NCBI GenBank assembly: GCA_907165275.2
Contig: OU015655.1
Coordinates: 1,376,501-1,440,500, forward strand
From: Zygaena filipendulae
Lineage: Eukaryota > Arthropoda > Insecta > Lepidoptera > Zygaenidae
Reading direction: 5' to 3'
DNA: 64,000 nucleotides
Part shown: piece by piece, positions 28,771-51,045 of the stretch
Position numbering within the stretch: position 1 is the stretch's first letter
Layout: each line of letters starts with the position of its first letter
Translations under genes and position numbers: made by a program
Notes under the pieces: model-generated
Seen by the model: the letters and a program-made list of their open reading frames with translations, nothing else
What the model was told of the DNA's origin: nothing
The model's database searches: none

Positions 28771-28887
28771 ACGTATTCCGACGTCCACGACGACGCCATG
28801 TTGAACTTTAAATTGGATTTTGGATTAATTTTAAACGGGGTACTAATTTCAAGCCCGAGTATAGGCACAGATAATATACTAATACTA

Positions 28888-28899
28888 CACTGGGAAAAA
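28888..28899 (+). repeat. Left terminal inverted repeat
   Basis: CACTGGGAAAAA, exact complement of 51,034-51,045. Preceded by ...ATACTA, so the flanking dinucleotide is TA. Confidence 0.7.
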
Positions 28900-29021
28900 A
28901 AAGGGTCGATTTATCGGCTATCCACAGCCGTGTAAACCCGGTACTACGGTTGCAGCCGCGTCAACACGGTAACATTTGCCGTGTGACGCTGAAACGGCTA
29001 CGGTGGACACACGGCTAATTT

Positions 29022-29290
29022 GCACACGGTACTGCGGTTGCAGCCGTGTCAATCTTGTCAGCCGTGTCAATTTATCAGCCGTGTCTCAATTTTTCAACAC
29101 GGCTATTATCATACACGGCTAGATTTGCACACGGTACTGCGGTTGCAGCCGTGTCAATCTTGTCAGCCGTGTCAATTTATCAGCCGTGTCTCAATTTTTC
29201 AACACGGCTATTATCATACACGGCTAGATTTGCACACGGTACTGCGGTTGCAGCCGTGTCAATTTGTCAGGCGTGTAAATTTTTTAACAC
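29022..29290 (+). repeat. 105-bp tandem repeat, 2.5 units
   Basis: GCACACGGTACTGCGGTTGC starts units at 29,022, 29,127 and 29,232. The first two units are almost identical. Confidence 0.9.
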
Positions 29291-29514
29291 GGCTATAAAC
29301 AGACACGGCTAGATCAGACACACGGTTACAGCCAACATGGCTGGAGTAGCCGTGTGAAAGGGCTACCTCATCCATATCGACACGGCTAGTTCAGCCGTTT
29401 TCCTACCTAATGACACCGTTGGTTAAGCCGTGTGACGCGGTTTGATGTGACCGTGTGAACGGCTGTCTGAGCCATGTCAACGCGGCTGTTCCAGCCGTCT
29501 CCCTATGTTCATGC

Positions 29515-30920
29515 GCAGCTGGCGTAGCCGTGTGACGCGGTCTGGAGTGGCCGTGTAAAACGGTTGCCTCAACTACGTCAACATGGCTATCCCAGCCGTC
29601 TCGCTACGACCTTACGCAGCTAGCGTAGCCGTGTGACGCGGTCTGGAGTGACCGTGTAAAACGGTTGCCTCAGCCACGTCAACATGGCTATCCCAGCCGT
29701 CTCGCTACGTTCTTACGCAGCTGGCGTAGCCGTGTGACGCGGTCTGGAGTGGCTGTGTAAAACGGTTGCCTCAGCCACGTCAACATGGCTATCCCAGCCG
29801 TCTCGCGACGTCCCTACGCAGCTGGCGTAGCCGTGTGACGCGGTCTGAAGTGGTCGTGTAAAACGGTTGCCTCAGCCACGTCAACATGGCTATCCCAGCC
29901 GTCTCCCTACGTCCCTACGCAGCTGGCTTAGCCGTGTGACGCGGTCTGAAATGGCCGTGTAAAACGGTTGCCTCAGCCACATCAACATGGCTATCCCAGC
30001 CGTCTCCCTACGTCCCTACGCAGCTGGCTTAGCCGTGTGACGCGGTCTGAAATGGCCGTGTAAAACGGTTGCCTCAGCCACGTCAACATGGCTATCCCAG
30101 CCGTCTCGCGACGTCCCTACGCAGCTGGCGTAGCCGTGTGACGCGGTCTGAAGTGGTCGTGTAAAACGGTTGCCTCAGCCACGTCAACATGGCTATCCCA
30201 GCCGTCTCCCTACGTCCCTACGCAGCTGGCTTAGCCGTGTGACGCGGTCTGAAATGGCCGTGTAAAACGGTTGCCTCAGCCACATCAACATGGCTATCCC
30301 AGCCGTCTCCCTACGTCCCTACGCAGCTGGCGTAGCCGTGTGACGCGGTCAGAAGTGGCCGTGTAAAACGGTTGCCTCAGCCACGTCAATATGGCTGTCC
30401 CAGCCGTCTCCCTACGTCCCTACGCAGCTGGCGTAGCCGTGTGACGCGGTCTGAAGTGGCCGTGTAAAACGGTTGCCTCAGCCACGTCAACATGGCTATC
30501 CCAGCCGTCTCCCTACGTCCCTACGCAGCTGGCGTAGCCGTGTGACGCGGTCAGAAGTGGCCGTGTAAAACGGTTGCCTCAGCCACGTTAACATGGCTGT
30601 CCCAGCCGTCTCCCTACGTCCCTACGCAGCTGGCGTAGCCGTGTGACGCGGTCTGAAGTGGCCGTGTAAAACGGTTGCCTCAGCCACGTCAACATGGCTA
30701 TCCCAGCCGTCTCCCTACGTCCCTACGCAGCTGGCGTAGCCGTGTGACGCGGTCTGACGTGGCCGTGTAAAACGGTTGCCTCAGCCACGTCAACATGGCT
30801 ATTCCAGCCGTATTTACGCAGCTGGCGCAGCCATGTGACGCGGTTTGAAGTGGCCGTGTAAAACGGTTGCCTCAGCCACGTCAGCACGGCTATCCCAGCC
30901 GTCTTTCTAAGTCCCTATAC
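29515..30920 (+). repeat. 101-bp tandem repeat, about 14 units
   Basis: The anchor GCAGCT occurs at 29,515, 29,616, 29,717, 29,818, 29,919, 30,020, 30,121, 30,222, 30,323, 30,424, 30,525, 30,626 and 30,727, each exactly 101 bp apart, then at 30,818 after a 10-bp deletion. Variants such as TCTCGCGACG recur 303 bp apart, showing multi-unit amplification. Confidence 0.95.
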
Positions 30921-31130
30921 AGCTGGTGGAGCCGGTGACGCGGTTGAGACAACCGTTTTGTACGGCTAGCGCACACCGCGTCACACGGCTCCGCCATCTG
31001 CGCATGGACGCAGGAGCACGGCTACCCCAGCCGTCCCTGTACGTCCCTACGCCGCTGGAGGAGCCGCGTAACACGGTTGAGGTCTCCGTTGCAAAACAGT
31101 GATCTCAGCTGCATCAATATGGCTACTTAG

Positions 31131-31600
31131 GCAATAATAAGTAGCCGTACTGACACGAATGTCTCAAGATCACCAGCTGTATAGCATAAAGGTAGAAGAG
31201 TCAGATATACTTGAACACCTGCGAAAGAAAGCTGCAGTTGAATTATACAAGATAAACACTAAAAGAATACAAGAAATCTCTTAAAATTACTGATTTTCCT
31301 ATTTGGTGAAGAATGATATGATTAGTAAATAATTAACATATTTATTTTAAGATACTGTTCATTTATTTTCCAAAATTACTTAAATGGTTTCAAATTTATA
31401 CAAATTCAAATAATTTATTCAATACACAATTCTAATCCAATTTTTAAATTTATAGACAATTTTAATCCAATTATATTTCCTGTACACAAGAAGATTTAGT
31501 AAACATGGATCAAATTTAATGAAACTGTGTACTAGAGGATCTCGTTGTCAAACCTGCAGGACGCTGTGGTACGTTAGTTTTATTAGCTGATGCGTTTCTA
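31131..31600. other. AT-rich spacer inside the giant element
   Basis: No gene. Contains AATAAA on the minus strand (about 31,579-31,584), a possible poly-A signal for the duplicated 3' exon that ends at 31,603. Confidence 0.45.
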
Positions 31601-31924
31601 AGTCACACTAACTTAAGGACGTCCTGCCGGTTTTCCAAAGCTTGACAAGCGTGTGCCGTGTGGGCCCACATAACTTTGCCTGATCGACCACGGGATCCGA
31701 TCCTGTACGATCCTGTACGATCCTGTAAATGAGCCTCGACCTCGCAGCGAGTTTTGGCAACGAAAATGAAGCGGATGGCTGCGTCGATCCGCGAGGCTTT
31801 AGTTCGAACACCGGTTCTTCCCCCGACGAACGACAACGACGACGACTCAGTATCTGAAAAATAGAATTAAATGTTAATTAATCAAGCGAATGTTCACTAA
31901 ACACCAGACGCAAATACTTAAATA

Positions 31925-32050
31925 ACTTTAGAAAAGTGCCTAAAAAATTTGAGGGTTGCCCTCAATTTCCCTGGGATCCCATCATCAGATCCTGACTTGG
32001 TGACAGTGGGATCACCTCGGGAGTATTATTCTTTCAAATAAAAAAAAATC
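31925..32050. repeat. ACCGACTTCC-family fragment in intron 5A
   Basis: 'ttgagggttgccctcaatttcc', 'atcccatcatcagatcctgactt' and 'ggtgacagtgggatcac' belong to the dispersed repeat at 35,700-36,442. The same fragment is at 33,893-34,018 in copy B. Confidence 0.6.
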
Positions 32051-32084
32051 TAAATCATTTTATAAATATTATGTAAATTATAAA

Positions 32085-32271
32085 TCTAATATATATAAAT
32101 CACGTGTCACGTTGTTTGTCCGCGATGGACTCCGAAACTACTGAACGGATTTTGATAAAATTTTGCAACCATTTATAATATGGTCCAACTTAAAAGATAG
32201 GATAGTTTTTATCCCGGAATTCTCGCGGGAACTCCGAAATTACCGCGGGTGAAATCGCGGGGGACAGCTAG
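32085..32271 (+). mobile_element. Helitron in duplication copy A
   Basis: TCTAATATATATAAATCACG to CGCGGGGGACAGCTAG. 187 bp, near-identical to 34,046-34,232. Confidence 0.9.
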
Positions 32272-32272
32272 T

Positions 32273-32959
32273 ATTATGTAAATTACGCTGGACTTGAACG
32301 CGATGTTTTTTATTACCTTTTTTGGCTGACGTTTCGGCTGAGTTGCATCACGCCGTGGTCACAGGCTGACTAAAGCATTGCGGCGTCGATAGCGAGCCGC
32401 GCGAGATGATTCTTCATCTACCCTCACTGGATGTTCTTTTTTATTAGATGCACTTTTAAGGTCCCTGCACACTACACTCACTCGGTCCGCATTCACCGGT
32501 TCGGAACGGCCGTAATGATGCGGAACACATCTTGCAACCGGATCTGAACCACTGGATTGAGTTCCATCGTTTGAAGGTTCTCTCAACTGAACGTCACTAC
32601 TACGCGAGGATAGTGCGTGAAGCGGTTGAAATAAAGAAACACAAAACTTTCAATCGAGATGACGGATATAGGTTGCCAACGACATGGGATCCTATAATTC
32701 AAAAAACAAAAAATCGTTGCGGCCGTCCGGAACCGGTGAATGCGGACCGAGTGAGTGTAGTGTGCAGGGACCTTAAAAGTGCATCTAATAAAAAAGAACA
32801 TCCAGTGAGGGTAGATGAGGAATCTGCTCGCGCGGCTCGCTATCGACGCCGCAATGCTTCAGTCAGCCTGTGACCACGGCGTGATGCAACTCAGCCGAAA
32901 CGTCAGGCAAAAAAGGTAATAAAAAACATCGCGTTCAAGTCCCGCGTAATTTACATAAT
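32273..32959 (+). mobile_element. Penelope-like element fragment with long inverted flanks
   Basis: About 235-bp inverted arms (ATTATGTAAATTACGC ... GCGTAATTTACATAAT) surround a unique centre. The centre, on the plus strand from 32,532, encodes HWIEFHRLKVLSTERHYYAR and then REAVEIKKHKTFNRDDGYRL, followed by TTWDP. This resembles the C-terminus, after the GIY-YIG nuclease, of Penelope-like retroelement proteins (from memory). Inverted partial copies are typical of these elements. Only the last roughly 60 residues remain; no reverse transcriptase core is present. Confidence 0.65.
32881..32907 (+). ncRNA. Hammerhead-like motif in the Penelope-like end
   Basis: GTGATGC, then AACTCAGC, then CGAAACGTC. 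The spacing of TGATG, a short hairpin and GAAAC-GTC resembles the minimal type I hammerhead ribozymes reported for Penelope-like elements. The CUGAUGA box is imperfect here (GTGATGC), so activity is doubtful. Inverted copy at about 32,330-32,356; further copies in duplication B. Confidence 0.4.
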
Positions 32960-33310
32960 ATAATGTGCTCAAAACGCGAAAATCTAAAAACTTTAATAAC
33001 AGTTTATAAATGACGCAGTTCTGAGGTAACAAACATAGATAAAAATATTTAAGAATTAAGAACTTTCTTTTTTTGAAGTCGGTTCAAAACAATATCCATT
33101 ACCTTTTGAAAGAGCGTGGATTCTTTGTTGCTGAGCCCGTAAGGGCTTCGATAGTGTTTGCAGCTTTGCGGAAGCTCTGTTTTCTATCAGATCCGAGATT
33201 TGTCTTAACCCAGTGTACAGTGCTGAGGGGCTAATATTATAATTTAGATTTGTGAAGTCAATGTTTATCTGTGAAACAAAAATAAACAAGTTAATTTTGT
33301 TAAAATATAA

Positions 33311-33365
33311 AAACCGGCCAAGTGCGAGTCGGACTCGCGTTGCAAGGGTTACGTGCTTCACTGGT
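33311..33365. repeat. Dispersed 'AACCGGCCAAGTGCGAGTCG' repeat
   Basis: AACCGGCCAAGTGCGAGTCG followed by GACTCGCGTTGC, a sequence I remember as common in insect genomes. Also at 35,086-35,140 in copy B. Confidence 0.55.
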
Positions 33366-33426
33366 CGGACTTAGTTCCCACTGTGTAAGTTGCTGCTGCC
33401 TATTGAGCAATTGATGTTTTTGTTTA

Positions 33427-36400
33427 TTATTCCACTACCCATGTGCGAAAATCTGTAATCGGCTGCCAAATGTGCTCACACTGTATTGGGTATCTTAGGT
33501 TAAAAACATAGAAACTTTTAAAACATAGGTCTACAGCTTCCAGAATATTAAGACAGCATAACCAAACGTCATCTACAACGACGAATGCGCTATTAATGTT
33601 CGCCAAGTTCTCACCTATAGCAATAACTAGAGGCTGCACTCCAATACCAGGTGCTGACTTGTTTAAAGCTTCCTTTCTGAATTCCTGTAAATGAGCCTCG
33701 CCCTCGCTGCGAGTTTTGGCAACTAAAATGAAGCGGATGGCTGCGTCGATCCGCGAGGCTTTAGTTCGAACACCGGTTCTTCCCCCGACGAACGACAACG
33801 ACGACGACTCAGTATCTGAAAAATAGAATTAAATGTTAATTAATCAAGCGAATGTCCACTAAACACCAGACGCAAATACTTAAATAACTTTAGAAAAGTG
33901 CCTAAAAAATTTGAGGGTTGCCCTCAATTTCCCTAGGATCCCATCATCAGATCCTGACTTGGTGACAGTGGGATCACCTCGGGAGTATTATTCTTTCAAA
34001 TAAAAAAAAATCTAAATCAGTTTATAAATATTATGTAAATATAAATCTAATATATATAAATCACGTGTCACGTTATTTGTCCGCGATGGACTCCGAAACT
34101 ACTGAACGGATTTTGATAAAATTTTGCAACCATTTATAATATGGTCCAACTTAAAAGATAGGATAGTTTTTATCCCGGAATTCCCGCGGGAACTCCGAAA
34201 TTACCGCGGGTGAAATCGCGGGGGACAGCTAGTATTATGTAAATTACGCGGGACTTGAACGCGATGTTTTTTATTACCTTCTTTGCCTGACGTTTCGGCT
34301 GAGTTGCATCACGCCGTGGTCACAGGCTGACTAAAGCATTGCGGCGTCCATAGCGAGCCGCGCGAGCAGATTCTTCATCTACCCTCACTGGATGTTCTTT
34401 TTTATTAGGTGCACTTTTAAGATCCCTGCACACTACACTCACTCGGTTGCCAACGACATGGGATCCTATAATTCAAAAAAGAAAAAATCGTTGCGGCCGT
34501 CCGGAACCGGTGAATGCGGACCGAGTGAGTGTAGTGTGCAGGGACCTTAAAAGTGCATCTAATAAAAAAGAACATCCAGTGAGGGTAGATGAGGAATCTG
34601 CTCGCGCGGCTCGCTATCGACGCCGCAATGCTTCAGTCAGCCTGTGACCACGGCGTGATGCAACTCAGCCGAAACGTCAGGCAAAAAAGGTAATAAAAAA
34701 CATCGCATTCAAGTCCCGCGTAATTTACATAATATAATGTGCTCAAAACGCGAAAATCTAAAAACTTTAATAACAGTTTATAAATGACGCAGTTCTGAGG
34801 TAACAAACAAAAAGATAAAAATATATAACCAAATTAAGAACTTTCTTTTTTTGAAGTCGGTTCAAAACAATATCCATTACCTTTTGGAAGATCGTGGATT
34901 CTTTGTTGCTGAGCCCGTAAGGGCTTCGATAGTGTTTGCTTTGCGGAAGCTCTGTTTTCTATCAGGTCTGAGATTTGTCTTAACCCAGTGTACAGTGCTG
35001 AGGGGCTAATATTATAATTTAGATTTGTGAAGTCAATGTTTATCTGTGAAACAAAAATAAACAAGTTAATTTTGTTAAAATTTAAAAACCGGCCAAGTGC
35101 GAGTCGGACTCGCGTTGCAAGGGTTACGTGCTTCACTGGTCGGACTTAGTTCCCACTGTGTAAGTTGCTGCTGCCTATTGAGCAATTGATGTGATTGATG
35201 TGATGTGCAAGTTAAATAAAAGGTTGTAATTAAACCGACTTCCAAAAACACAAATCTAAAAAAGCTAAAAATAACAAAATACCGATTTAATCCAAAAGAC
35301 AAAAACATACGTAATATTATTGGTTTGTGCTACCACTGATCGGTTTGAATTCGGTGACAAGCCCGCTGGTGTCTGCCCACATGGGTTGTTCTGCTCACGG
35401 AGAGCTGGTTGCGGGAGTTGACTTAGCCCATCTACTCCCTCCATATTTGGCTTGTTACCGACTTCATACCGATCAGTGTTAGCACAAACCAATAATATTA
35501 CGTATGTTTTTGTCTTTTGGATTAAATCGGTATTTTGTTATTTTTAGCTTTTTATTTTTAGCTTTTTTAGATTTGTGTTTTTGGAAGTCAGTTTAAATTT
35601 TTTTGTTAAAAATTTGTTTATTTCTTGCTTTTTAGTGAGTCGGTTTGTAATTTATCTAAGTTACAATAGCCTACTGTCAACTGCTCATAACCTTTTACAA
35701 AATATTGCTTTTCCCGATGTAGGGACGTTAATTTTTGAGGAGTTCTGATGGTACAACACCATCAGTTCCACTTCACCATATACATTGTGACGAACATAAA
35801 TTATTTAGAAACCACATTAAAGTTAACGAATCGGAATTTGTGAAATACCTATTATTTAGTAGTTCCGATGACCATCTGCGGTCTTCATCATCAGTTCCAC
35901 TTCTTCAAATCTTACTTTCCAAAAGCAAATAAACGATTTACTATAAAAAATACCCAAATCGCCATAGGTGTGCCTATAAATTTTGAAGAGTTCCCTCGAT
36001 TTCTCCAAGATCCCACCATCAGATCCTGACTTGATGACAATGTGACCAATTCGGAAGTATCCCCTTTCAAACAAAAAAAACAATTTTCCAAATCGCTCTA
36101 ACTAGAACCCCTGAAATACGTATTATTGTTGAGTAGTTCTGATGAGCATCTGTGGTCTTCATCATCAGTTCCACTTCTTCAAATTTTGCTTTCCGAAAGC
36201 AAATGAACGATTTACTATAAAAAATACCCAAATCGCTATAGGTGTGCCTATAATTTTTGAAGAGTTCCCTCGATTTCTCCAAGATCCCATCATCAGATCC
36301 CGACTTGGTGGCAATGGGACCTAATTGGGAGTAAACCCTTTCAAACAAAAAAAGAATTTTCCAAATCGGTCCAACCGTCTTCGAGTAGTCGGTGAACATA

Positions 36401-38191
36401 CAATCGAACATAGAACCTCCTCCTTTTTGGAAGTCGGTTAAAAAAATAGATATAATATGATTCACAAATGTGCCAATCTCTTACCAGGTGTGGACCAACT
36501 CTCTCCAAACGAAGCAAAGGAAACTTTTTCAAGTACTGTGAAGTTGAAACAGTCATTAAGTACCGCTTGCGAAGTGACCGCGTGGCTTTCCAAGCTGTTT
36601 CTAGTATGGATGAAGATTCTACTCCCTGGTACTTGGCTATTGTGATAATGTCGCCGTTAATTTTCAGCTCCTCTGTGGAAAACGTTCAAGTATAAGTAAT
36701 AGTGAAGTTTATTTCATTATAAATTATATATATATACAAATTATATAGGTATTATTAATTATAATTATAAATATTTATTTCATAATATAAACACAACACA
36801 GATGTTTAGCATCTGTAAGCATCACCTTAATTAATATGGATATCATATGAGGTGCTCTATCAGCCCTCTTAGTTCACAGCCCTGTCATCACGCGGATCCA
36901 CACCTATAGCCACCACATCTACACTCGGTTCAGCGCGCATGTTAGGGCGAGCCATGTTCGGCCGAGCCACTCGTCCGGTGTGGATCCGCCCTATTGGATC
37001 TACGTACACATTTAAAATTGTATATGAACTATACTGTATACCTACCTTCTAAGTTTTGGTCCTGATCAAGTTTTTCGTCCTGTAATGGCCGCTGTGATAG
37101 TTTCCTTTTAAGGCCACGTCGCCCTGTACCAATTTCCTCTGAATCGTCAGATGTCTCTGCTGTAGTGACGGATGAGGTCTTCTTGTTTACTAACCCTCTG
37201 GTCTCTCGCCAAATAGCCTGCCTTTTGCCTAACATGAAATAAGAGTAAGCAATTGGATTCAATCATTCTATACAGACATTGGTAGGTACGTACCTACTCA
37301 TAATTGCACTGGATAGATTTTTTGAAGCTTTTTCATATGTTGCCACCCTCACATTTAACCTAGGTATTTATTATATATTTTTTTTAGTTCAGTTCAGTTC
37401 AGTAGGTAGTTTCGGAGTTTATCGCGAACATACATCGTGACACGAAATTTTTATATATAGGTAGGTACCTAAATAAGATTTTGTTTGACAGATTACCCCT
37501 AGAAAATGTGTCTTAGGTAACTGTTGGTACGGAATGTTGTTGGTTTCGGTGGTTTGATTATTGGAACTCGGCCTAACTTGATGTCTTATCACTTTTTTTA
37601 TCACACTTCAATTGATTTAAAAATTATTCATTTTTTATTGGTCAAAGTACAGCTATGGCATGGATTCAGTTTTTTTTTAATGTTTCATCATGTCTTTTAT
37701 TATATAGAACATAGAACGCATCAAAATAGGCATAAAATGTAAATATAATTTTGTGTAAGATATATTCCAACTTACCAAGAAATGCTTCGGCGTATTTCTC
37801 GAAACCCCACGCGTTCAACAGTTCGCTTAATTCGTGACACAAACTAGAAACAAAACAAATCTATCATATTTTTTTACAGTACCATGGAGCCGTTACAAAG
37901 TGGCGCGAACTTTTGCACTAACTAGGACGCGTAAAAAAGGCGAGGCGCCATCTTTTTTTAAAACTGTCTACTTTATTAAATATGTAGGTAGCACCTACCT
38001 ACCGACGTTTGGCACAACGTGTTTATGCTTCAATTCAATATTTGTTTGCAAAACAATGGTATATCAAGTAAATATCGTTTTTTCCTTTAGGGGGATGCGC
38101 TAACCTCCAAACGGGTTCGCAGTTTGATAATGCTCCACTATTACTGCACACATGAGTATTACAATTAAAATTAAGTACCTACTCACCTCAT
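33427..38191 (-). CDS. Six-exon gene for a 331-residue uncharacterised protein
   Basis: Exons (minus strand): 38,191-38,187; 37,843-37,776; 37,228-37,046; 36,672-36,485; 35,043-34,881; 33,815-33,427. All five introns are GT-AG with good sites (GTGAGT, GTAAGT, GTAGGT, GTAAGA, GTAATG; pyrimidine-rich acceptors). The lengths sum to 996 nt, exactly 332 codons with TAA, and every junction keeps frame, so the gene looks intact. Residues 1-24 (MSLCHELSELLNAWGFEKYA...) suggest a short helical, SAM-like start. About 25-85 is charged, with RRGLKRK as a possible nuclear signal. Then come SLRKRYL, YLKKFPLLRL and GPHLINIDFTNL. The C-terminal exon has PLVIAIGENL, FVVVDD, AVDLCFKSF and NLRYPIQCEHIWQ. That C-terminal pattern resembles, from memory, a multicopy family of unnamed animal proteins; no enzyme motif is visible. 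AATAAA overlaps the stop. It is nested in the giant transposon and could be its cargo or its own DNA-handling protein; function unknown. Confidence 0.8.
34046..34232 (+). mobile_element. Helitron in intron 5, copy B
   Basis: Same 187-bp element and same position as 32,085-32,271, so it inserted before the duplication. Confidence 0.9.
34234..34733 (+). mobile_element. Penelope-like fragment, copy B, with deletion
   Basis: Same inverted arms as copy A, but the centre is reduced to TTGCCAACGACATGGGATCC plus about 45 bp. The deletion joins CTCGGT to GGTTGCC. The 66-codon plus frame here reads the right arm. Confidence 0.75.
35231..35595. mobile_element. Foldback element with ACCGACTTCC ends
   Basis: ACCGACTTCCAAAAACACAA at the left and TTGTGTTTTTGGAAGTCAGT at the right, complementary for over 100 bp (TAATATTATTGGTTTGTGCT / AGCACAAACCAATAATATTA). 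The centre reads 'ggttgttctgctcacggagagctgg'. A partial sibling is at 47,970-48,280. Lies in intron 4 of the gene. Confidence 0.8.
35700..36442 (-). mobile_element. Dispersed ACCGACTTCC repeat in intron 4
   Basis: On the minus strand starts AACCGACTTCCAAAAAGGAG at 36,442. Contains two successive copies of a module with 'tcatcagttccacttcttcaaa', 'aaaatacccaaatcg' and 'ttccctcgatttctcc'. The inverted relative is 47,146-47,890. The frames of 60-132 codons on both strands are readings of this repeat. Confidence 0.7.
37380..37402. repeat. (TTCAG)n microsatellite in intron 2
   Basis: Four TTCAG units between exons 2 and 3 of the minus-strand gene, followed by a Helitron-like 'tagtttcggagtttatcgcg'. 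Confidence 0.7.
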
Positions 38192-38211
38192 GATGCCGTC
38201 ATAGGTTTCAT
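38188..38211 (-). promoter_or_regulatory. Short upstream ORF overlapping the start codon
   Basis: In the leader, ATG at 38,211 opens MKPMTAS and stops at TGA, which overlaps the main start as ATGA. If the leader is transcribed this far, the uORF could limit or couple initiation of the 331-residue protein. The leader limit and the promoter are not identified. Confidence 0.4.
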
Positions 38212-39250
38212 TCAGGACACAAACACTCTATTTACCGGGAAAATATCACAGCATCTAATTTTTAGACGTAAGCAGCGCACTCGACGTTAGGCAATGTGAT
38301 GTACAAGTATTAGCACGAAAGTGACTAGTGAGCGAAATGTGGAAGGGATAGCTGCGCATGGGTACAGTCGCGCACCTAATATAATAATTATAAGTTTACA
38401 GTCCCTACAGTATGGACTAACTCTGAAATGTCCTAGTCCCCACAGTTGGCACTAACTCAATGGCGGTTTTCTTATTTTTTTACGGCGTTCCATATTGGTT
38501 GACAGTACTGTAAAAGTTTTATTGGCTGGTCACAATACAAAATATGTATTTTTTTCCCAATCCATATTCCATAACGCACATACTGGCCAGAATTAAAAAA
38601 GTTAAGGTAGTGCGGGCGAAATTCACCCGCGATTTTGACAATCAGTCTCTGTAGTCTGTGTTCGGTTAGTGAGCGGCTCGCGCCGTCTCGCATAAATATG
38701 TCGAAATATAAGTAATCGGTTAGTGTTTATATCAAGTGTTATATATCAAATCATGGACTAATTATTGGCCCATGATCAAATTGATGGAAATTAAATAAGG
38801 TTTTTAGTTTTAATATTTAATTTAGCCGCATGACAAAATTTTCAGTAAAAAAAGTCAGTACCTTTTAATGACGCAATAATTTGTTTACGGCTGTCAAACA
38901 AAAAACAAATGAAATACTTTATTTGTTTTCTAATATTCATTTGTTCAAAACTATGTGAAAAATCAATTGTTTTGTAGCAAATTTACTCATGATATAATTT
39001 TAAATAAATTATATTGGTGTTAAATCTTCTAAATAACCTACATTTTTGTTTTTGTTTAACCACGGTAACGCTAGGTATGGCTGTTTCACGGCTAGCCGGC
39101 ACGTATTTTGTCAATAAATGTTTGTTGTGAAGTCATTATTAGTTTTTTGATGGTGTAATTACATAAAATCGACGCCTATACTGGCCAGTTACATCTTAGT
39201 GTATGTGAAATGTGTATGTGGCTATAAATTTAGTGTAAACCAGTGACGGA
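38212..39250. other. Region upstream of the six-exon gene
   Basis: 38,260-38,480 is less AT-rich and may hold the promoter, but no TATA box or initiator could be fixed. ATTGGCCCATG and other short words show no known element. The 73-codon minus frame at 38,472-38,693 is not linked by a splice site. Confidence 0.35.
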
Positions 39251-39251
39251 T

Positions 39252-39273
39252 ATGAAAAAGGACCTCATCTTTG
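39252..39273 (+). CDS. Weak candidate first exon
   Basis: ATG AAA AAG GAC CTC ATC TTT G followed by GTAAGTAGG, a consensus donor. GGCTATAAATTTAG lies just upstream at 39,220. No in-phase second exon was found on the plus strand, so this may be chance. Confidence 0.2.
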
Positions 39274-39279
39274 GTAAGT

Positions 39280-40249: not shown

Positions 40250-40609
40250 ATTAACAAAAAGTTCCTCTAATTCTAAACCAAATGATTGCACACTTTTGTG
40301 CCCCTGCGTTGCTCGTTGCAACTGTGCCTGGATTGCGACATCTGATTTTCTCGGGATAAGATATTTTTTCATATCCCCAACCAGGCAATAAACTGAACAA
40401 TACTTGGACTAAGAGGTTAAACGAAGTTTTGCACTGGCTTAAAGTCGCGTTTTTCAAGCAAATTCAATTAATAGAGGTTTAGATGCAATATTAATCATAG
40501 AATCGTATAACTTGATCCCATTGATTAATTGTTTTGTAATATTCTCTACTCCTGTCATAATGGGAAATAAGACAAGAGCCGTTTTTAAATCAAAATTATC
40601 GGTAGCCAT
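40250..40609 (-). pseudogene. LTR-retrotransposon gag remnant
   Basis: The minus-strand translation from ATG at 40,609 reads MATDNFDLKTALVLFPIMTG near the start. The second part includes DMKKYLIPRKSDVAIQAQLQ, then RATQGHKSVQSFGLELEELF. This resembles the N-terminal to central gag region of insect LTR retrotransposons (from memory). At least three in-frame stops (TGA, TAA, TAG) lie between the two parts and homology ends at about 40,250, so it cannot make the protein. No LTR, pol or primer site seen nearby. Confidence 0.65.
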
Positions 40610-40779
40610 TTTACTTTCTATCGACTCACTGCAATGTACCTACCTAGGTACCTACTAACTAGCCTACTAAGGAATTAATTTTTCTATATAAACTATGAAT
40701 ATCGTCCACTAGTCGATTAATTAGTAAGGTATCACTAACATTTAATTCTGATCTTGTTATCTTAGATTGGATACTTACC

Positions 40780-40917
40780 TAGTAAATAGTAATAAACTTA
40801 GACTATCACTGGCAGATAGCTGATGTTATAAAGAGTAACTTAGTGCTTTACTTTTTGTCTCGGAATTCCCGCGGGAACTCCGGAATTGACGCGGGTGAGG
40901 CCGCGGGGCACAGTTAG
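40780..40917 (+). mobile_element. Helitron 3' part with TTAG end
   Basis: 'tcactggcagatagctgatgttat' in parts, CGGAATTCCCGCGGGAACTCC region, then GCCGCGGGGCACAGTTAG. The 5' end is lost. Confidence 0.75.
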
Positions 40918-41020
40918 TACTATACTATAAAGATATTATGCCCTATCTTTGGGACAAAAATGACGAAATTTTCCTGAAGAAAAATGAGGGCTTTCAAGTG
41001 TTAGTGAGTTTATATAAAAA

Positions 41021-41270
41021 CTAGCTGACCCCCGCGGTTTCACCCGCGGTGGTTTCGGAGTTCTCGTGGGAGTTCCGGGATGAAGGGTGTGTCACTGTGT
41101 CACTCAGGATTACTTTAGTTTCTTATAAGTGAAAGAATTTTCAAAATCGGTGCAGTAGATTCAGATATTACAAACTCCGGAGTTTCCGCGGGAATTCCGG
41201 GATGGGACAAAAGTACCCTATGTCACTCAGGACCACTGTAGCTTCTTTTTAGTGAAAGAATTTTTGGCCG
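41021..41270 (-). mobile_element. Helitron, minus strand, with duplicated box
   Basis: CTAGCTGACCCCCGCGG at 41,021. A second GGAGTTTCCGCGGGAATTCC box at 41,180 shows two bodies fused, as at 11,028. Confidence 0.75.
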
Positions 41271-41279
41271 CAAAGGACA

Positions 41280-43305
41280 ATTTTTTGGATACTACAATAT
41301 ACAATACTGAAGCCATCCTCGTATTCCTTCGACTCCGTCGCGCCGCGCTTCATTCAGTAACTAAAAGTTAGGATAGTAGGTATGATCAGAAGCTTCAAAT
41401 TTGCTTCTGAATGACTTAGGAGACAAAATTAGCCAAGTGTAATAGCTACCGACTTAGGTAGGTACCTACATGGTACCTACCTACTACGCTGCTGAAGGTA
41501 CTTAATCGTGGATTCTACTCTTTTATTATAGTAGGTACTAGGGAGGTAGGTACCTACTTACCTATCTATATATTATAATATAGATGTGAAATGAAATTTT
41601 AAATAAATTTGCTACAAAACTATTGATTTTTCGTAAAGTTTTGAACAAATGAATACCTACCTACCTCAATCATTGATTTACTACTCAATGACCTCAATGA
41701 ATACCTACTACCTATTAGAAAAGAAATTGAACAGTATACAAATTAGTTATTTCATTTGTTTTTTTTATCAGTCGTCATTGCAAATTAAGGCGCATGGAGT
41801 CGTGAAACGATCATTTTTGAGGCCCTAAAGCTCATAAATTAGCCTACTGACGATTCCAGAATTAACATATATTAAAGATTGATATATGAACTTCAATCTG
41901 AGCATTTAAATAAATTGTAGTCTACAAAATACTATTCAAAAAAAAACATTGAAATGAAGCTGTTTTCAACTTGAAATACGCTACTGCTTCTAAACTACAA
42001 GTGATAATTTCACGATTCTTTCAGGAAAAGATTGCTAACTTGTTTAACTTAAAACTGAGCATTTATCGTTCCAAAATAATACATAGTTTTGACGAAATGT
42101 TTTTTATACCACATTCACTACAAATGGTCACGAGCGGGTCCGTGCGCGGGCGACGGGAGTCAGTCTGGCGCTGGCATTCAAACGGGTAGGCTGTGCGTCG
42201 CGCTGTCGCAATCCGCTTGGTTACGCCAAATTAATTTTGTGAGCAAAATAAGGTAGCGACATCAAAAATGCCACGAAAAAAAAAGCTGCAAAAAGTTGGG
42301 CAACTGGACTTCACTGAATTTTAATTATTGGTTCATTGTATTTTTTTGTAACAAAAGGCAATTTTATAAACACATTTTTGTTTTATTACTTTCTTTTACT
42401 AAATTAATCAATAAATTAATAAAAATAAAAATATACAGCTACAGCATTTTAGATATCGGAAAATATACAGCAATTTTCTATCTGCATACAAATCGAAGAA
42501 TGCTGTAAGTAGTAAAACCTGTTTCCTTGTAACTTTAGTGAAAATATTTTAATTGCAACTAACATTAAGGTGGGTCTAAAGGTCTAGTTTTCATACAAAC
42601 TGCCGTAGCTATATTAAAGGCATTCCGCCTGTTTTTATTTATTAGACTTCATTTAATAAAATACTACTACTTGTTACGATAACGCACAGCCCAAAATCTT
42701 TGCATATTATAGTGAAGAAATAACATAATTACAATCATTTCAAAATGAATTAAATTTCGGTCGAACCTTTGCTTGTGTGAGAGAACGAATACACTTATAA
42801 GTGTACGAAAATGGCGGCCCGGTCTATAAACAGCTGTAGTTAGGCTGTAGACTGACAAGTCCCCCGAATGCAGTAGTTTGTAGTGAATTCCAAAAGGATC
42901 ACAAGGTGGCGCGGCGTTGTGCCGTGAGTTTTGACAATTTTGCCTACCAAGATAATTTAGAATTGTATTTGAAAATATACCTATTACTGATGTAGTAGGT
43001 ACCTATTAGTAGCCGAAGCGAATACAAATAACTTGTGGAAAGTTGGAAAAGACGTTTTGGTTCTGCGTCACGTACGATGAGGTATAACGTAACTTACGGG
43101 TAAAAGTATTTTATATTTTTGTGTTGAATAAATTCTTGCTATCTCTTTCTTGTTTTCACGATGAGTAAAAGAGAGAGACCATATTTTCGAAAGGTTGTAT
43201 CTCGGCGGGGTGATAAAATTCAGCGTTTATCTCCAAATTCTCCGATGCAATGAAAATAATATTTTTATTGTGTCTTATGTGACCACGTGATGCAACGTGT
43301 GTTCC
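41280..43305. other. Unassigned DNA with TACCTAC words
   Basis: GTAGGTACCTAC-type words are frequent at 41,455-41,700. An acceptor-like ATTCTTTCAG at 42,026 opens a 38-codon frame, but it is not in phase with any donor seen. 43,190-43,305 shows early, diverged satellite-like sequence. Confidence 0.35.
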
Positions 43306-43309
43306 GAGA

Positions 43310-44897
43310 TATAGTCTCGGAACTACAAGTTACAGACCCATCGTGTTGGTACTCAAACGTCATGTTTTCGTGATATCTATGTGATCACGTGGTCAAATTT
43401 CCAATAACCTATATCTCGGAAACTACAAGTTACGGACCCATCGTGTTGGTACTCAAACTTCATGTTTTCGTGATATCTATGTGATCACATGGTCAAATTT
43501 TCAACAAGCTATATCTCGGAAACTACAAGTTACAGACCCATCGTGTTGGTACTCAAACTTCATGTTTTTGTGATATCTATGTGATCACGTGATCAAATCT
43601 TCGATAGCCTGTATCTCGGAAACTACAAGTTACAGACCCATCGTGTTGGTACTCAAACTTCATGTTTTCGTCATATCTATGTGATCACGTGGTCAAATTT
43701 TCGATAGCCTATATCTCGGAAACTACAAGTTACAAACCCATCGTGTTGGTACTCAAACTTCATGTTTTCGTGATATCTATGTGATCACGTGATCAAATCT
43801 TCGATAGCCTGTATCTCGGAAACTACAAGTTACAGACCCATCGTGTTGGTACTCAAACTTCATGTTTTCGTCATATCTATGTGATCACGTGGTCAAATTT
43901 TCGATAGCCTATATCTCGGAAACTACAAGTTACAAACCCATCGTGTTGGTACTCAAACTTCATGTTTTCGTCATATCTATGTGATCACGTGGTCAAATTT
44001 TCGATAGCCTGTATCTCGGAATCTACAAGTTACAGACCCATCGTGTTGGTACTCAAACTTCATGTTTTCGTCATATCTATGTGATCACGTGGTCAAATTT
44101 TCGATAGCCTATATCTCGGAAACTACAAATTACAGACCCATCGTGTTGGTACTCAAACTTCATGTTTTCGTGATATCTATGTGATCACGTGATCAAATCT
44201 TCGATAGCCTGTATCTCGGAAACTACAAGTTACAGACCCATCGTGTTGGTACTCAAACTTCATGTTTTCGTCATATCTATGTGATCACGTGGTCAAATTT
44301 TCGATAGCCTATATCTCGGAAACTACAAGTTACAAACCCATCGTGTTGGTACTCAAACTTCATGTTTTCGTCATATCTATGTGATCACGTGGTCAAATTT
44401 TCGATAGCCTGTATCTCGGAATCTACAAGTTACAGACCCATCGTGTTGGTACTCAAACTTCATGTTTTCGTCATATCTATGTGATCACGTGGTCAAATTT
44501 TCGATAGCCTATATCTCGGAAACTACAAGTTACAGACCCATCGTGTTGGTACTCAAACTTCATGTTTTCGTCATATCTATGTGATCACGTGATCTAATGT
44601 TAGATAGCCTATATCTCGGAAAATACAAGTTACAGACCCGTCGTGTTGGTACTCGAACTTCATGTTTTCGTCATATCTATGTGATCACGTGGTCAAATAT
44701 TCGATAGGCTATATCTCGGAAACTACAAGTTACAGACCCATCGTGTTGGTACTCAAACTTCATGTTTTCGTGATATCTATGTGATCACGAGATCAAATCT
44801 TCGATAGCCTGTATCTCGGAAACTACAAGTTACAGACCCATCGTGTTGGTACTCAAACTTCATGTTTTCGTCATATCTATGTGATCACGTGGTCAAA
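43310..44897. repeat. 100-bp satellite, about 16 units
   Basis: ATCTCGGAAACTACAAGTTA recurs every 100 bp from 43,413 to 44,813 and the array ends with GTGATCACGTGGTCAAA at 44,897. Units alternate between GATCACGTGATC and GATCACGTGGTC variants. Marker variants (TATCTCGGAATCTAC, TACAAACCCA) recur 400 bp apart, so four-unit blocks were amplified. No frame stays open because 100 is not a multiple of three. Confidence 0.95.
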
Positions 44898-44899
44898 AA

Positions 44900-46220
44900 G
44901 TGGAATCGAAATCTAAGGTTTGAACACAAGATTTTCACGATTCATAGTTTACAAAAAAAGACGCACACCACCGAGACTCTTGTTGAGGTAGCCAAATTAC
45001 GAATCCTAATCGTCTAGTATTAATCGATTTGCATGTGTGTGTGACTACGTTTCGGCCAGTTATTCGATATTTTCGTGTAGTTAAAGGATAATAATGCGCG
45101 TAAAGCCATATAAAAATTTTAAATTAAAGATGTATTAAACACTCATTCTCTCGCAGCCATCATCAAAATCTATTTTTTAACCTTGTGATTCTCTGTAAAT
45201 TGAGAAAACTCTTTTATGGCGCCGTCCGCGGCCTCTATCGGATAAGAGCTGCATAATCTGGCGGAGCGCACCCTTAACTTAACAAAACTATGTACAAAAA
45301 AAATCACAATTCTGTCAGTTCTTGTTAAAAAGTTGCTTTATTTTCAATTTTATAAAAAAAATGTTTCTGGTGAAAAGTTGGTGTTTTGTTACTTACAGCA
45401 AATATGTTTTCTTACGGCGAAAATTTTGATTAGTCTACTACTTTTTTCTGGGACGATATAAATTAAAAATAAATTCGGTACCTAAAGGTACCAAATAGGT
45501 ACACTAAATATGTGAAAAGAAAAAAATCAATTTGTGTATAGGTACTAAATTGTACTAAATAAGTACTAAATTGTAAAATAATAAATTAATTTAACTACCT
45601 ATTTAACTACGAATTTGATATCATTAATCCTTTATAGTAAAATTACAATATAATAAAAATAAACATCAATAATTATTTACCTTCATTATTAAAGTATTAA
45701 AATAAAACATAAAAAATACGATATAAAAATATTTGCATGACTCAATGTAATATCAATTAAAATAATGATAGATTTGATGGAGTGCCGATAACTGTTCCAC
45801 TGACCCTACGTACATTATCGCGCGATGTTTGGGTGCGGGTAGCGGGGGCGAGAAAATTAGGCCACGCCTCAACGCCCAAGGTCGTTGGCGACACCACGAG
45901 CCTTAAATTGCGTCATTCAAAAGTTACGGATTTTTTTCACTGGGGCTCATTGGGGTATAAAAAGCCAGTAAAATAGGTGGGTAAAAGGCCGACCTCTTTC
46001 GTCTGAGAGGCCGACCTTTTTTACTTCGTATGCATCGACGTCACGTCGACGTAGAAAAATTACCAATCTGTTTCGTCTGTAGACAACGTGTGTCTACTGG
46101 ACGCTACCGGTATAAAAATTCCGTAGGTAGGTAGGTATACTAGGTAGTCACCGTTTGGGTAGGTACCTACTGGACGTTTCGGCCTCCAGAAGACTTCTAT
46201 TGATGTATTTATGAGGAATA
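44900..46220. other. Unassigned, with a TATA-like site
   Basis: TATAAAAA at 45,956-45,963 follows a GC-richer 180 bp. A short imperfect hairpin GGCCGACCTCTTTCGTCTGA / AGGCCGACC-type repeat occurs at 45,987-46,018. No transcript structure found. Confidence 0.35.
45956..45963 (+). promoter_or_regulatory. TATA-box-like sequence, weak
   Basis: GGGGTATAAAAAGCC matches the TATA consensus, but no initiator or coding exon could be linked downstream. Confidence 0.25.
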
Positions 46221-46300
46221 CTAGCTGTTCCCCGCGGGTATCATCCGCTTTAATTTCGGAGTTCCCGAGGTAGTTCCGAGATTAAAAGTACCTACCTACA
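46221..46300 (-). mobile_element. Helitron 3' end, minus strand
   Basis: CTAGCTGTTCCCCGCGG, 'ttaatttcggagttcccgagg', AAAAGTACC; the rest is lost into TACCTAC-rich DNA. Confidence 0.7.
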
Positions 46301-47082
46301 TGGATGGTAGGTACCTACCTACCTACTTTTTATAAATTTTTGGTTGAGCAGTCTTGAATCTTGAGTCTGCACTACAGTCTGCACTCTGCAGTCAGCAGTT
46401 GTGCTTTTGCGACTTGTGACCTTCATTTTTTTTTATAATAATAATCCACTTCACAACACACAGATGTACTTGATCCCACACAGCACACTAAGCTATAAGC
46501 TTGTGTCGTGGAAACCAAACAAACGTGGTATATACTACACATATTATTACATATATATTATACTATAGATATACATATACATACATATATACACACCCAT
46601 TCAAGTAGAAATGCGGGAACATTGGGAACAAGTTTGAACATGTTCTTTACGGGCTACGAATTACGATATAGCTTTAAATATCTCAAAAATAACATTTATG
46701 AGGAATATTTTTAATAAATAAACATGTCCCTACGTGTGTTCAGTCTCTGAAAGACAACTTGACCGTTTAAAAAAATTTATTATAATATAGTCTATAAATA
46801 CATTGTTTCAAATTTTAATATTGCCAATTGCCATTGAATTTTTTGATGGATGCTTACGTTACTAACCTACGATGCTAACCTAACATGGTGCATGAAATTT
46901 TTAAATATTAGAATTTTTCTCTGTACATATTACCTATAGTTAATTCATTATTGAATAATCTATTCTGTTGTCCACGTCGATTGTATTGTCGTTTTTGCGA
47001 GAGAGTGAGTAGGTACCTAGCATTCAACGACTGCCATTGGCTGGGCGGCTGGGCCGCGAGCCGCGCCACGCGCCACGCAATA

Positions 47083-47109
47083 CGCATCCGCCCGGTGGTG
47101 GCGGATGCG
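47083..47109. repeat. GC-rich 10-bp hairpin
   Basis: CGCATCCGCC - 7 nt - GGCGGATGCG within an 80%-GC-like patch (47,040-47,140) next to the ACCGACTTCC repeat. Confidence 0.7.
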
Positions 47110-47145
47110 TGATGCGACATGGCGCGGTGCGATGCGTTTCTTTTT

Positions 47146-47890
47146 AACCGACTTCCAAAAGGGAGGAGGTTCTATGTTCGATTGTATGTATGTTTTTTTT
47201 TTATGTATGTTCACCGAGTACTCGAAGGCGGTTGGTCCAATTTGGAAAATTCTTTTTTTGTTTGAAAGGGTATACTCCCAATTAGGTCCCATTGCCACCA
47301 AGTCGGGATCTGATGATGAAATTTTGGAGAAATCGAGGGAACTCATCAAAAATTATAGGCACACCTATAGCGATTTGGGTATTTTTGATAGTAAATCGTT
47401 CATTTGCTTTTGGAAAGCAAAATTTGAAGAAGTGGAACTGATGATGAAGACCACAGATGGTCATCGGAACTATTCAACAATAGTACGTTCTGATTGGAGC
47501 GATTTCGAAAATTGTTTTTTTGTTTAAAAGGGGATAGTCAAGATCTGATGGTGGAATCTTGGAGTAATTGAGGGAACTCTTCAAAAATTATAGGTACACC
47601 TATAGCGATTTTTGTATTTTTATAGTAAATCGTGTATTTGCTTTCGGAAAGCAAAATTTGAAGAAGTGGAACTGATGATGAAGACCACAGATGGTTATCG
47701 GAACTACTCAATAATAGGTATTTCACAGGTTCCGAATCGTTACCTTTAATATGGGTTCTAAACAATTTATGCTCGTCACAATGTATATGGTGAAGTGGAA
47801 CTGTTAGTGATGTACTAGGAGAACTCCTCAATAATTAACGTCCCTGCGTCGGGAAAGGCAATATTTTGTAAAAGGCGATGAGCAGTTGAC
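47146..47890 (+). mobile_element. Dispersed ACCGACTTCC repeat, inverted relative of 35,700-36,442
   Basis: Begins AACCGACTTCCAAAAGGGAG and carries the two modules in the order expected for the reverse of 35,700-36,442. The 140-codon plus frame at 47,105 reads this repeat, not a gene. Confidence 0.7.
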
Positions 47891-47969
47891 ATTAGGCTAT
47901 TGTAACTTAGAGAAATTGCGAACTATGTCACTTAAAATCGAGAAATAAACAAAATTTTAACAAAAACAT

Positions 47970-48280
47970 TAAAACCGACTTTCAAAAACACAAATTAAAA
48001 AAGCTAAAAATAAAAAGCTATAAATAACAAAATACCAATTTAATCCAAAAGACAAAAACACACGTAATATTATTATTGGTTTGTGCTACCACTGATAGGT
48101 AGGTATGAATATGGAGGGGGTAGATGGGCTCAGTCGACTCCCGCCACCAGCTCTTCGTAAGCAGAACGACCCAAGTGGGCAGACACCAGCGGGCTTGTCA
48201 CCGAATTCAAACCGATCAGTGGTAGCACAAACCAATAATAATTACGTGTGTTTTTGTCTTTTGGATTAAATCGGTATCGG
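47970..48280. mobile_element. Second foldback element with ACCGACTTTC end
   Basis: ACCGACTTTCAAAAACACAA, AATATTATTATTGGTTTGTG, a centre with 'agctcttcgtaagcagaacgacc', then AGCACAAACCAATAATAATT. The right arm is cut short after 'ttaaatcggtatcgg'. Sibling of 35,231. Confidence 0.7.
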
Positions 48281-48415
48281 TCTAGGTTTGAACGAGATCT
48301 AGTAAGTAGTTTTTTTAATACGTCATAGATCGTAAACCGCAATAAAAAATTACAATATTATTAAAACATCGATCAAAGTTACAACGAACTACAAGAACTT
48401 TTATATTAATGTTAC

Positions 48416-48554
48416 TTGCTGCTACGGAACCCTTCATGGGCGAGTCCGCACTTGGCTGCTTTTTTCTAGGGTGGATTCTCTCCTTAGACTGCATGTCTGA
48501 AGCTGAACATGCATCAGATATCAGTGAGTCACATTTATCAGATAAGACACTCAT
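48416..48554 (-). CDS. Weak candidate first exon facing inward from the right array
   Basis: ATG at 48,554 (GCCACATGAG context) opens MSVLSDKCDSLISDACSASD and continues to MKGSVAA, with a donor-like CAA|GTAACATT after 46 codons plus one base. The frame is open upstream to 48,692. It lies 290 bp inside the right subterminal array, where an element gene could start. No partner exon found. Confidence 0.3.
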
Positions 48555-48842
48555 GTGGCAAAAAAGGATTATGTTCACTGAAGGAATGTGAACGGCTTCA
48601 GGGTTAGGTTGCAGACAGTAAAAACGGCGTGTTATTCCTTCTTTTGTGTAATAATTATTTGCAAAATTTGTATAATTATTTGCAAAGCTCATACTAAGCG
48701 GTTCGGATTATAACGCCCTCTGTCGGCTTAATCCTAAACTACTTGCTAAATTAGCTGATGATGATCTTACCTAGATAAACCATCTAGTGGTTCCAGTCTG
48801 GAATCAAAGATGGCGCTGTTATTAACACACAGCCATTCCATA

Positions 48843-51033
48843 AGAGGCTAACGTAGCCAAGTGTTGATAAGCACACGACCTGCTGTATCGTGTCTAAACG
48901 GCTCCGACAGCCGTGTTTGCAAGATAATTAATGACACGGCTAACGTAAACAAGTTTTGTTTTGCACACGGTCCGCTGTACCGTTTAGGTATATAACGGCT
49001 ACGACAGCCATGTTTGCGTGGTTCATTTCTGACACGGCTAACGTAGTCAAGTGTTGATAAGCGCACGACCTGCTGTATCGTGTCTAAACGGCTCCGACAG
49101 CCGTATTTGCAAGATAATTAATGACACGGCTAACGTAAACAAGTTTTGTTTTGCACACGGTCCGCTGTACCGTTTAGGTATATAACGGCTACGACAGCCA
49201 TGTTTGCGTGGTTCATTTCTGACACGGCTAACGTAGCCAAGTTTTGATAAGCACAAGACCTGCTGTATCGTGTCTAAACGGCTCCGACAGCCGTATTTGC
49301 AAGATAATTAATGACACGGCTAACGTAAACAAGTTTTGTTTTGCACACGGTCCGCTGTACCGTTTAGGTATATAACGGCTACGACAGCCATGTTTGCGTG
49401 GTTCATTTCTGACACGGCTAACGTAGCCAAGTTTTGATAAGCACAAGACCTGCTGTATCGTGTCTAAACGGCTCCGACAGCCGTGTTTGCAAGATAATTA
49501 ATGACACGGCTAACGTAAACAAGTTATGTTCTGCACACGGCCAGCTGTACCATTTACAGAACGGCTCCGACAGCCGTGTTAGCAAGTTTAATATATGACA
49601 TGGCTAACGTGGCCAGGTTTTGATAAGCACACAACCAGCTGTACCCTTTATAGAACGGCTCCGACAGCCGTGTTAGCAAGTTTATTGTATGACACGGCTA
49701 ACGTAGCCAAGGTTTGAAAAGCACACGACCTGCTGTATCGTGTCTTAACGGCTCCGACAGCCGTGTTAGCAAGTTTAATATATGACACGGCTAACGTGGC
49801 CAGGTTTTGATAAGCACACAACCAGCTGTACCCTTTATAGAACGGCTCCGACAGCCGTGTTAGCAAGTTTAATATATGACACGGCTAACGTGGCCAGGTT
49901 TTGATAAGCACACAACCAACTGTACCCTTTATAGAACGGCTCCAACAGCCGTGTTAGCAAGTTTATTGTATGACACGGCTAACGTAGCCAAAGTTTGAAA
50001 AGCACACGACCTGCTGTATCGTGTCTTAACGGCTTCGACAGCCGTGTTTGCAAGTTTATTATATGACATGGCTAACGTAAACAAGTTATGTTCTGCACAC
50101 GGCCAGCTGTACCATTTACAGAACGGCTCCGACAGCCGTGTTAGCAAGTTTAATATATGACATGGCTAACGTGGCCAGGTTTTGATAAGCACACAACCAG
50201 CTGTACCCTTTATAGAACGGCTCCGACAGCCGTGTTAGCAAGTTTATTGTATGACACGGCTAACGTAGCCAAGGTTTGAAAAGCACACGACCTGCTGTAT
50301 CGTGTCTTAACGGCTCCGACAGCCGTGTTAGCAAGTTTAATATATGACACGGCTAACGTGGCCAGGTTTTGATAAGCACACAACCAGCTGTACCCTTTAT
50401 AGAACGGCTCCGACAGCCGTGTTAGCAAGTTTATTGTATGACACGGCTAACATAGCCAAGTTTTGACGAGCACACGATCTGCTGTATCGTGTCTAAACGG
50501 CTTCGACAGCCGTGTTTGCAAGTTAAATATATGACACGGGTAACGGGAACAAGTTATGTTATGCACACGGCCAGCTGTACCGTTTATAGAACGGCTCCGA
50601 CAGCCGTGTTAGAAAGTTTATTATATGACACGGCTAACGTGGCCAAGTTTTGATAAGCACACGACCTGCTGTACCGTGTCTATACGGCTCCGACAGCCAT
50701 GTTAGCAAGTTTAATATATGACACGGCTAACGTGATAAGCACGCGGTGCACCGTACCGTGTCAACAACGTTACCGAGGCCGTGTTTGTTGTGTGCACACC
50801 GCTCCGACAACCGAGTCAAAAGGTAGCCGTGTAATTTTACACGGCTAGGATTTCAACACGGCTGAAAAAATTACGAACATGGTACACGTAACCGTCTAAA
50901 GCGGCTATCTTAACCGCTTACACGGCTACGTTTCATGTAGCCGTGTACACGGTTCTTTACACGGCTGCCAAACTCGGTTGTCAGAACCGTTTGCACGGCT
51001 ACGCAAAACGTAGCCGTGTTCAAAAGCCGTGTA
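48843..51033. repeat. Right subterminal array of ACACGGCT / AGCCGTGT motifs
   Basis: 48,850-49,500 is a 190-bp repeat (starts at 48,850, 49,040, 49,230, 49,420) made of two alternating half-units. From 49,420 single units of 92-95 bp follow (GACACGGCTAACGTGGCC ... CGGCTCCGACAGCCGTGTTA), about 14 of them, to about 50,740. The last 290 bp is irregular and ends at the right terminus. The nine minus frames of 69-72 codons read the array. Confidence 0.9.
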
Positions 51034-51045
51034 TTTTTCCCAGTG
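51034..51045 (-). repeat. Right terminal inverted repeat
   Basis: TTTTTCCCAGTG, exact complement of 28,888-28,899, followed by TACACTAG, so the flanking dinucleotide is TA. Confidence 0.7.

Follow-up and report, generated by a model that had tools for sequence, protein, structure and literature searches.

A window of 64,000 nucleotides (the whole stretch of DNA analysed, from contig OU015655.1) of the lepidopteran Zygaena filipendulae was investigated, and its positions 28888-51045 are occupied by what we consider to be one non-autonomous copy of a recently active, giant cut-and-paste transposon family of the CMC superfamily. We give this whole explanation a probability of roughly 0.93, and hold with slightly greater assurance still that the interval is a transposon. 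The element begins with the terminal inverted repeat CACTGGGAAAAA on the forward strand (28888-28899) and finishes with TTTTTCCCAGTG on the reverse strand (51034-51045). Read directly from the window, the two are exact inverted complements with TA next to each, and these TA dinucleotides, at 28886-28887 and 51046-51047, form the left and right copies of the target-site duplication. An earlier inspection of the letters without database searches (the sequence-only reading) had described these termini in the same way and had likened the ends and short duplication to those of CACTA/CMC elements; both observations stand, and a single CMC-type element spans the interval.

The window copy is the common 18-kb form of the element plus a 4.1-kb insertion. 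This nested insertion lies at 41789-45902 (41785-45906 with the TTAA at 41785-41788 and 45903-45906), has imperfect terminal inverted repeats and is missing from all ten other copies of the window's form that were obtained. It holds a 100-bp satellite of 15.9 units at 43310-44897, as delimited by Tandem Repeats Finder (TRF), and a TTAA-flanked, satellite-bearing insertion of this kind is a possible route for the spread of a satellite by a mobile element. The element also contains a direct duplication (31721-33417 and 33683-35192) and long inverted repeats (35230-36402 and 47204-48240, 87-95% identical and about 11 kb apart). Among the open reading frames (ORFs) lying wholly inside the window, only one reaches 150 amino acids, with a length of 168; none of ten element ORFs matched a Pfam family at E<=1, and Rfam at gathering scores returned nothing in 28000-52000. 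Neither the window copy nor the C1 and C3 copies showed a match to the transposase gene described below, and the other eight copies share their map. It had been proposed from the letters that the element carries a spliced gene and may be cargo-bearing. Spliced exons are indeed present, but they are pieces of an accessory gene belonging to the element itself, all on the reverse strand: exon d (184 of its 188 bp, 37046-37229, 99.5%), exon e (188 bp, 36485-36672, 98.9%, with GT-AG borders in the C4 copy), the truncated last coding stretch (33463-33791, 99.1%) and a duplicated fragment of that stretch (31721-31829, 98.2% to the C4 piece L029). The other two accessory exons are absent from the window. 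As no cargo gene was found in the window element, and the additional 4.1 kb is the nested insertion, the idea of a cargo gene was dropped.

The genome searched comprises 366 Mb in 56 contigs. Among 100 listed places of the exact terminal 12-mer, at least 28 inward-facing pairs were observed, 15,979-29,431 bp apart, and a single outward-facing neighbour pair was equally close, between two adjoining C7 copies. The left-end probe of 133 bp (28888-29020) occurred at no fewer than 32 places, of which 30 were 100% and two 99% identical. Two of these places are the ends of the C18 copy, and two others (C50:26141 and C3:15338423) are copies known from their left-end matches, with right ends outside the sequence read; the C3:15338423 copy has one base altered in its terminal 12-mer. 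No decayed copies were seen with this end probe, whose counts are minimum values. For comparison with the window copy, ten more copies, 16-18.7 kb long, were obtained as overlapping halves, and all ten are collinear with it along both halves, arrays excepted. Several of them carry smaller insertions, duplications or deletions, the C19 copy contains a rearranged stretch, and the copies C7:991625 and C28:1176984 lack one half of the 31721-33417/33683-35192 duplication, which gives them their 16-kb forms. The 11 copies of the window's form diverge by 0.00-0.20% across roughly 5.5 kb of their interior, whereas C4, which bears the transposase, shows 1.7-1.8% divergence from them over 1.8 kb. Lepidopteran-like mutation rates are near 3e-9 per site per generation, which dates the group of 11 copies to no more than a few hundred thousand generations ago.

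Each end of the element opens into a tandem array, identified by TRF, word counts and array lengths. The left array (28888-31160, forward strand) is rich in AGCCGTGT and consists of 105-bp units (2.6 copies, 29009-29282) followed by 101-bp units (15.2 copies, 29426-30944). The right array (48846-51045, forward strand) is rich in ACACGGCT/AGCCGTGT, reaches the right terminus and is built of 94-bp units with a higher order of 187/281 bp at 48846-50734. The words ACACGGCT and AGCCGTGT occur 9 and 23 times (32 in total) on the left and 20 and 18 times (38) on the right, against means of 0.08 (left) and 0.05 (right) in 200 mononucleotide shuffles of each array. In the element interior and in both of its flanks within the window they were not found at all, so the earlier claim that these words are confined to the arrays within the window was borne out. 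The claim of a near-nucleosomal unit length, from the same reading, was not, since units of 94-101 bp fall short of it and the sole unit to qualify is the 187-bp double unit on the right. Across 12 copies, the left array measures 1,970 bp in eight, 1,952 bp in two, 2,104 bp in C4 and 2,273 bp in the window, the last being 303 bp (3 x 101) above the commonest length. The right array measures 2,349 bp in nine, 2,345 bp in the window, 1,969 bp in C2 (380 bp less) and 2,159 bp in C4. Recombination is the likely source of these changes. Though such readily changing unit numbers, and unit lengths that differ between the two sides, would suit arrays that are a mere by-product of unequal exchange, with a transposase that needs only the 12-bp ends, the same 8-bp word recurs in both arrays despite their unlike units, in C4 and defective copies alike. 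The 133-bp left end is moreover invariant in 30 of the 32 places where it was found, yet youth alone could explain this invariance. We leave the by-product explanation a chance somewhat short of even.

The ends of all 28 other pairs were read, giving 29 copies with the window copy included. A matching 2-bp duplication flanks every one of them (TA in 24, TG in four and CA in one, in element orientation), so that the further copies bounded by both ends, which the sequence-only reading had suggested looking for, number at least 28 and all carry duplications. The duplication is exactly 2 bp in 27 of the 29; in the remaining two the match extends to TACCTA, which we read as chance. In 25 of the 29 copies the duplication is followed by a G or a C, the fetched flanks having a G+C content of 34%. 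All 29 copies terminate in CACTG..CAGTG with a CAC core, and 28 of them have one left and one right end. The C18 copy (C18:9629204-9651291) displays left-type ends on both sides with a TA duplication, and the 801 bp read from its interior are 99.25% identical to the transposase-bearing lineage. This suggests that two left ends can serve, although a rearrangement after insertion would give the same picture.

For the empty-site test, the flanks of a copy were joined with one TA and then aligned to sequence. The joined flanks of the C1 copy align across the junction to three members of a dispersed repeat that lie inside the window: 28689-28458 (87%) and 19592-19823 (82%), each with a single TA in identical context, and 4131-4244 (88%), with TTA at the junction. 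Insertion with TA duplication is therefore shown at a paralogous site of the C1 copy, not of the window copy. The joined flanks of the C3:10107479 copy (L013/L014) and the C20 copy (L066/L067) likewise align to repeats across the junction, but these alignments have gaps or changes at that point, and for this reason only the C1 copy was used as empty-site evidence. A further row, L048/L049, was discarded because the match was to its own locus. The search for empty sites that had been proposed was thus successful in part, with uninterrupted paralogous sites for the C1 copy but none for the window copy itself.

These observations bear on two other ways of producing the interval. Segmental or satellite-driven duplication, instead of transposition, could have spread an 18-kb unit, as the end arrays can recombine and, between near-identical copies, vary in length by 303 bp and 380 bp; the precise CACTG/CAGTG ends, the duplications in 29 of 29 copies, the differing flanking letters and the uninterrupted paralogous sites of the C1 copy make this very improbable. 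Even less credible is that two unrelated short elements, each with a nearby partner end, face each other by chance. The termini are only 12 bp long, and the 106 exact occurrences of the 12-mer in the genome compare with 68 for the reversed control. Many of these matches are chance ones, the unpaired matches largely so, because all five unpaired sites that were inspected lacked element sequence. Nevertheless, the inward pairs at 16-29 kb, the matching duplications and the collinearity of both halves in ten of ten copies speak against it, and the outcome foreseen by the sequence-only reading as fatal to a single element, in which each end belongs to its own short element, is refuted by the paired, duplicated copies. 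From the pairs, duplications, identical ends, near-identical copies and uninterrupted sites taken together, we therefore conclude that a giant DNA transposon underwent a recent burst.

The copies C4:2036169-2059045 (22,877 bp) and C7:1028910-1052786 (23,877 bp) each hold one uninterrupted transposase frame of 865 codons from stop to stop, or 863 amino acids from the ATG. The two transposases are identical in translation, and the surrounding 4,245 bp are 99.95% identical. For the C5 copy, likewise of 22,877 bp, the 801 bp read are 100% identical, but they include no more of the transposase gene than its final bases. Direct repeats of about 280 bp (90%) flank the gene, one at L029:5461-5738 and the other in the 280 bp after it, from L029:8888, and recombination between such repeats could delete the transposase gene. 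We detected 109 relatives of the transposase, one 95% and one 73% identical and the rest at most 42%; those with names come from aphids, beetles, a plant bug, moths, wasps, mosquitoes, an ant and a brachiopod. The 95% identical protein (P0001) is encoded by a 24,781-bp contig of a JGI source, which makes it a member of a close family from a different organism or sample and possibly a case of horizontal transfer.

The query was aligned with 30 near-full-length relatives of the 109 (789-912 amino acids), chosen for length; 59 of the 109 reach 780 amino acids. D324, D417 and E680, the DDE triad, are present in all 31 aligned rows and are, by analogy and from the predicted fold, probably catalytic. 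C437xxC440 and H656xxxH660 are likewise present in 31 of 31 rows, and D499 and H502 are also invariant. In the accessible part of PMC12730594, CMC transposases carry C(2)C and H(3-4)H motifs between the second D and the E, where the Zygaena motifs fit, and the wider CMCT clade has 5'-CA..TG-3' termini with a 2-5-bp duplication, with which CACTG..CAGTG and the 2-bp duplication of all 29 copies agree. Pfam Transposase_21 (PF02992) matched six of the 31 family members at E<=10 (best 6.7e-05) and Plavaka two of the 31, the C4 query itself matching neither. The transposase is predicted to share the architecture of RAG1, with identities of 9-14% to solved structures of RAG1, HzTransib and BbRAGL among the rows listed, and its C-terminal 130 residues additionally match BAH domains, the BAH fold included. 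A virus-like giant element of the Polinton or Teratorn kind with a CMC-like end, for which only size and terminal repeats speak, is scarcely credible, as the Pfam scan found no viral gene among 13 ORFs, the CMC-like transposase is the only long ORF (>250 amino acids) of the C4 copy, and viral contigs yielded no relative of the transposase (four pattern-matching stretches, none confirmed) and no exact match to either of two 28-30-bp end patterns.

The accessory frame lies on the same strand in the C4 copy, and its stop codon is 44 nt upstream of the transposase ATG. Its exons in piece L029, at 535-706, 837-1247, 1675-1862 and 2782-2969, have GT-AG borders and matching phases; the first exon was not found. 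The spliced prediction of 319 amino acids has neither a homolog among 1829 candidates nor a Pfam family, and the one solved-structure row that it gave (E 1.1) is not meaningful; its last stretch of 228 amino acids has no homolog among 872 candidates from a large database. This stretch does match three of the 109 transposase relatives, the insect gene models P0102 (3e-8), P0039 (2e-7) and P0040 (8e-7), each a single protein in which it precedes the transposase motifs, and the order of accessory part and then transposase is therefore not private to the Zygaena family. A SAM domain in the accessory part appears solely in the NCBI name of P0040 and, with none in Pfam and PDB sequences, is not claimed. 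The weevil model P0102 combines an accessory-like part and a transposase with a viral-type helicase domain (a structure match), and it may be a wrong model.

With reference to known systems, so far as the accessible portions of the cited papers go, plant CACTA elements have CACTA ends and 3-bp duplications (PMC8978399, PMC4219821), and in animal relatives the duplication is 2 bp and the element about 5-9 kb long (PMC1636069, PMC4298943). Of the plant-type CACTA/EnSpm features, the Zygaena element lacks the CACTA terminus, having CACTG, and the 3-bp duplication; it does display the same repeated motif near both ends, in the window and in other copies. Plant subterminal repeats extend over several hundred nucleotides in units of 10-20 bp (PMC8978399), unlike the Zygaena arrays of 2.0-2.3 kb with units of 94-105 bp. 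The soybean elements TgmR (13 kb, with two putative ORFs, CACTA ends and a 3-bp duplication) and Tgmt (20.5 kb) are similarly large with subterminal repeats, TgmR differing from the CACTG ends and 2-bp duplication found here (PMC4219821). The size class of 16-20 kb is shared with En/Spm families of the red alga Chondrus crispus (cited in PMC6431247), where size goes with four to five ORFs, whereas the Zygaena length is mostly array or DNA free of long ORFs. Size by itself is no novelty, as CACTA elements of 16-20.5 kb are known from this alga and from soybean (PMC6431247, PMC4219821). The animal TRC group, with relatives of about 5.2 kb in Tribolium and 9.2 kb in Aedes and several spliced ORFs in SmTRC1 of Schistosoma (PMC1636069), resembles the Zygaena family in its CACTA-superfamily transposase, 2-bp duplication, short inverted repeats and, in SmTRC1, spliced ORFs. 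It differs in the CCC terminal core proposed for it, against CAC here, and in the 16-29 kb and 2-kb arrays of the Zygaena element; the word "subterminal" is absent from the accessible TRC text (PMC1636069). CAC...GTG ends and a 2-bp duplication are also found in ENS1_Cis, a Ciona CACTA element, and in viral CMC miniature elements, but those miniatures measure 116-422 bp, and no giant copies or arrays are described in the available part of that source (PMC6004678). The fungal EnSpm-like ESTA shares CMC-type motifs and TA duplications (PMC12730594). In the open-access literature we did not find in print the Zygaena family, 2-kb arrays on an animal CACTA element, a gene-less giant burst or a BAH-bearing CACTA transposase; among the results of one such search, the nearest was Spongebob, an animal CACTA element of 5.8 kb (PMC4298943). 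The family is a variant of the CMC superfamily, animal CACTA/EnSpm-like, with unusual kilobase arrays, giant gene-less amplification and a BAH-like domain.

As to mechanism, a transposase from the larger copies of the C4 and C7 type, acting as a RAG1-like DDE enzyme by cut and paste, would cut at CACTGGG and join at TA, preferring an adjacent G or C, and would act in trans to move the deletion derivatives of 16-18 kb. The 2-kb arrays of ACACGGCT words would be binding sites for the zinc fingers of the transposase or for the spliced accessory protein, and would load and pair ends up to 29 kb apart; we regard the arrays as a binding platform with evenly balanced expectation. The C-terminal BAH-like domain may read histones at donor or target sites, much as the PHD finger of RAG2 guides RAG1, a tentative suggestion with the odds against it. 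Taken all together, a RAG1-fold transposase with its own BAH reader and an array-coating accessory protein might let elements of 16-29 kb, even gene-less ones, amplify in one recent burst, as an animal version of the En/Spm two-protein system in which the ends are several times larger and linked to the state of chromatin; this full combination we think rather unlikely.

CACTA relatives have been studied mainly in plants. The family described here is giant and of animal type, it has intact transposase genes and exact ends, and with about 30 copies that are nearly identical and dozens of putative binding words per end it makes the role of subterminal repeats directly testable. The family shows that recent multiplication to many copies is possible for elements of 16-18 kb that have no transposase gene, and its predicted RAG1 architecture, together with a histone-reader-like domain, bears on how RAG-type recombinases became chromatin-coupled.

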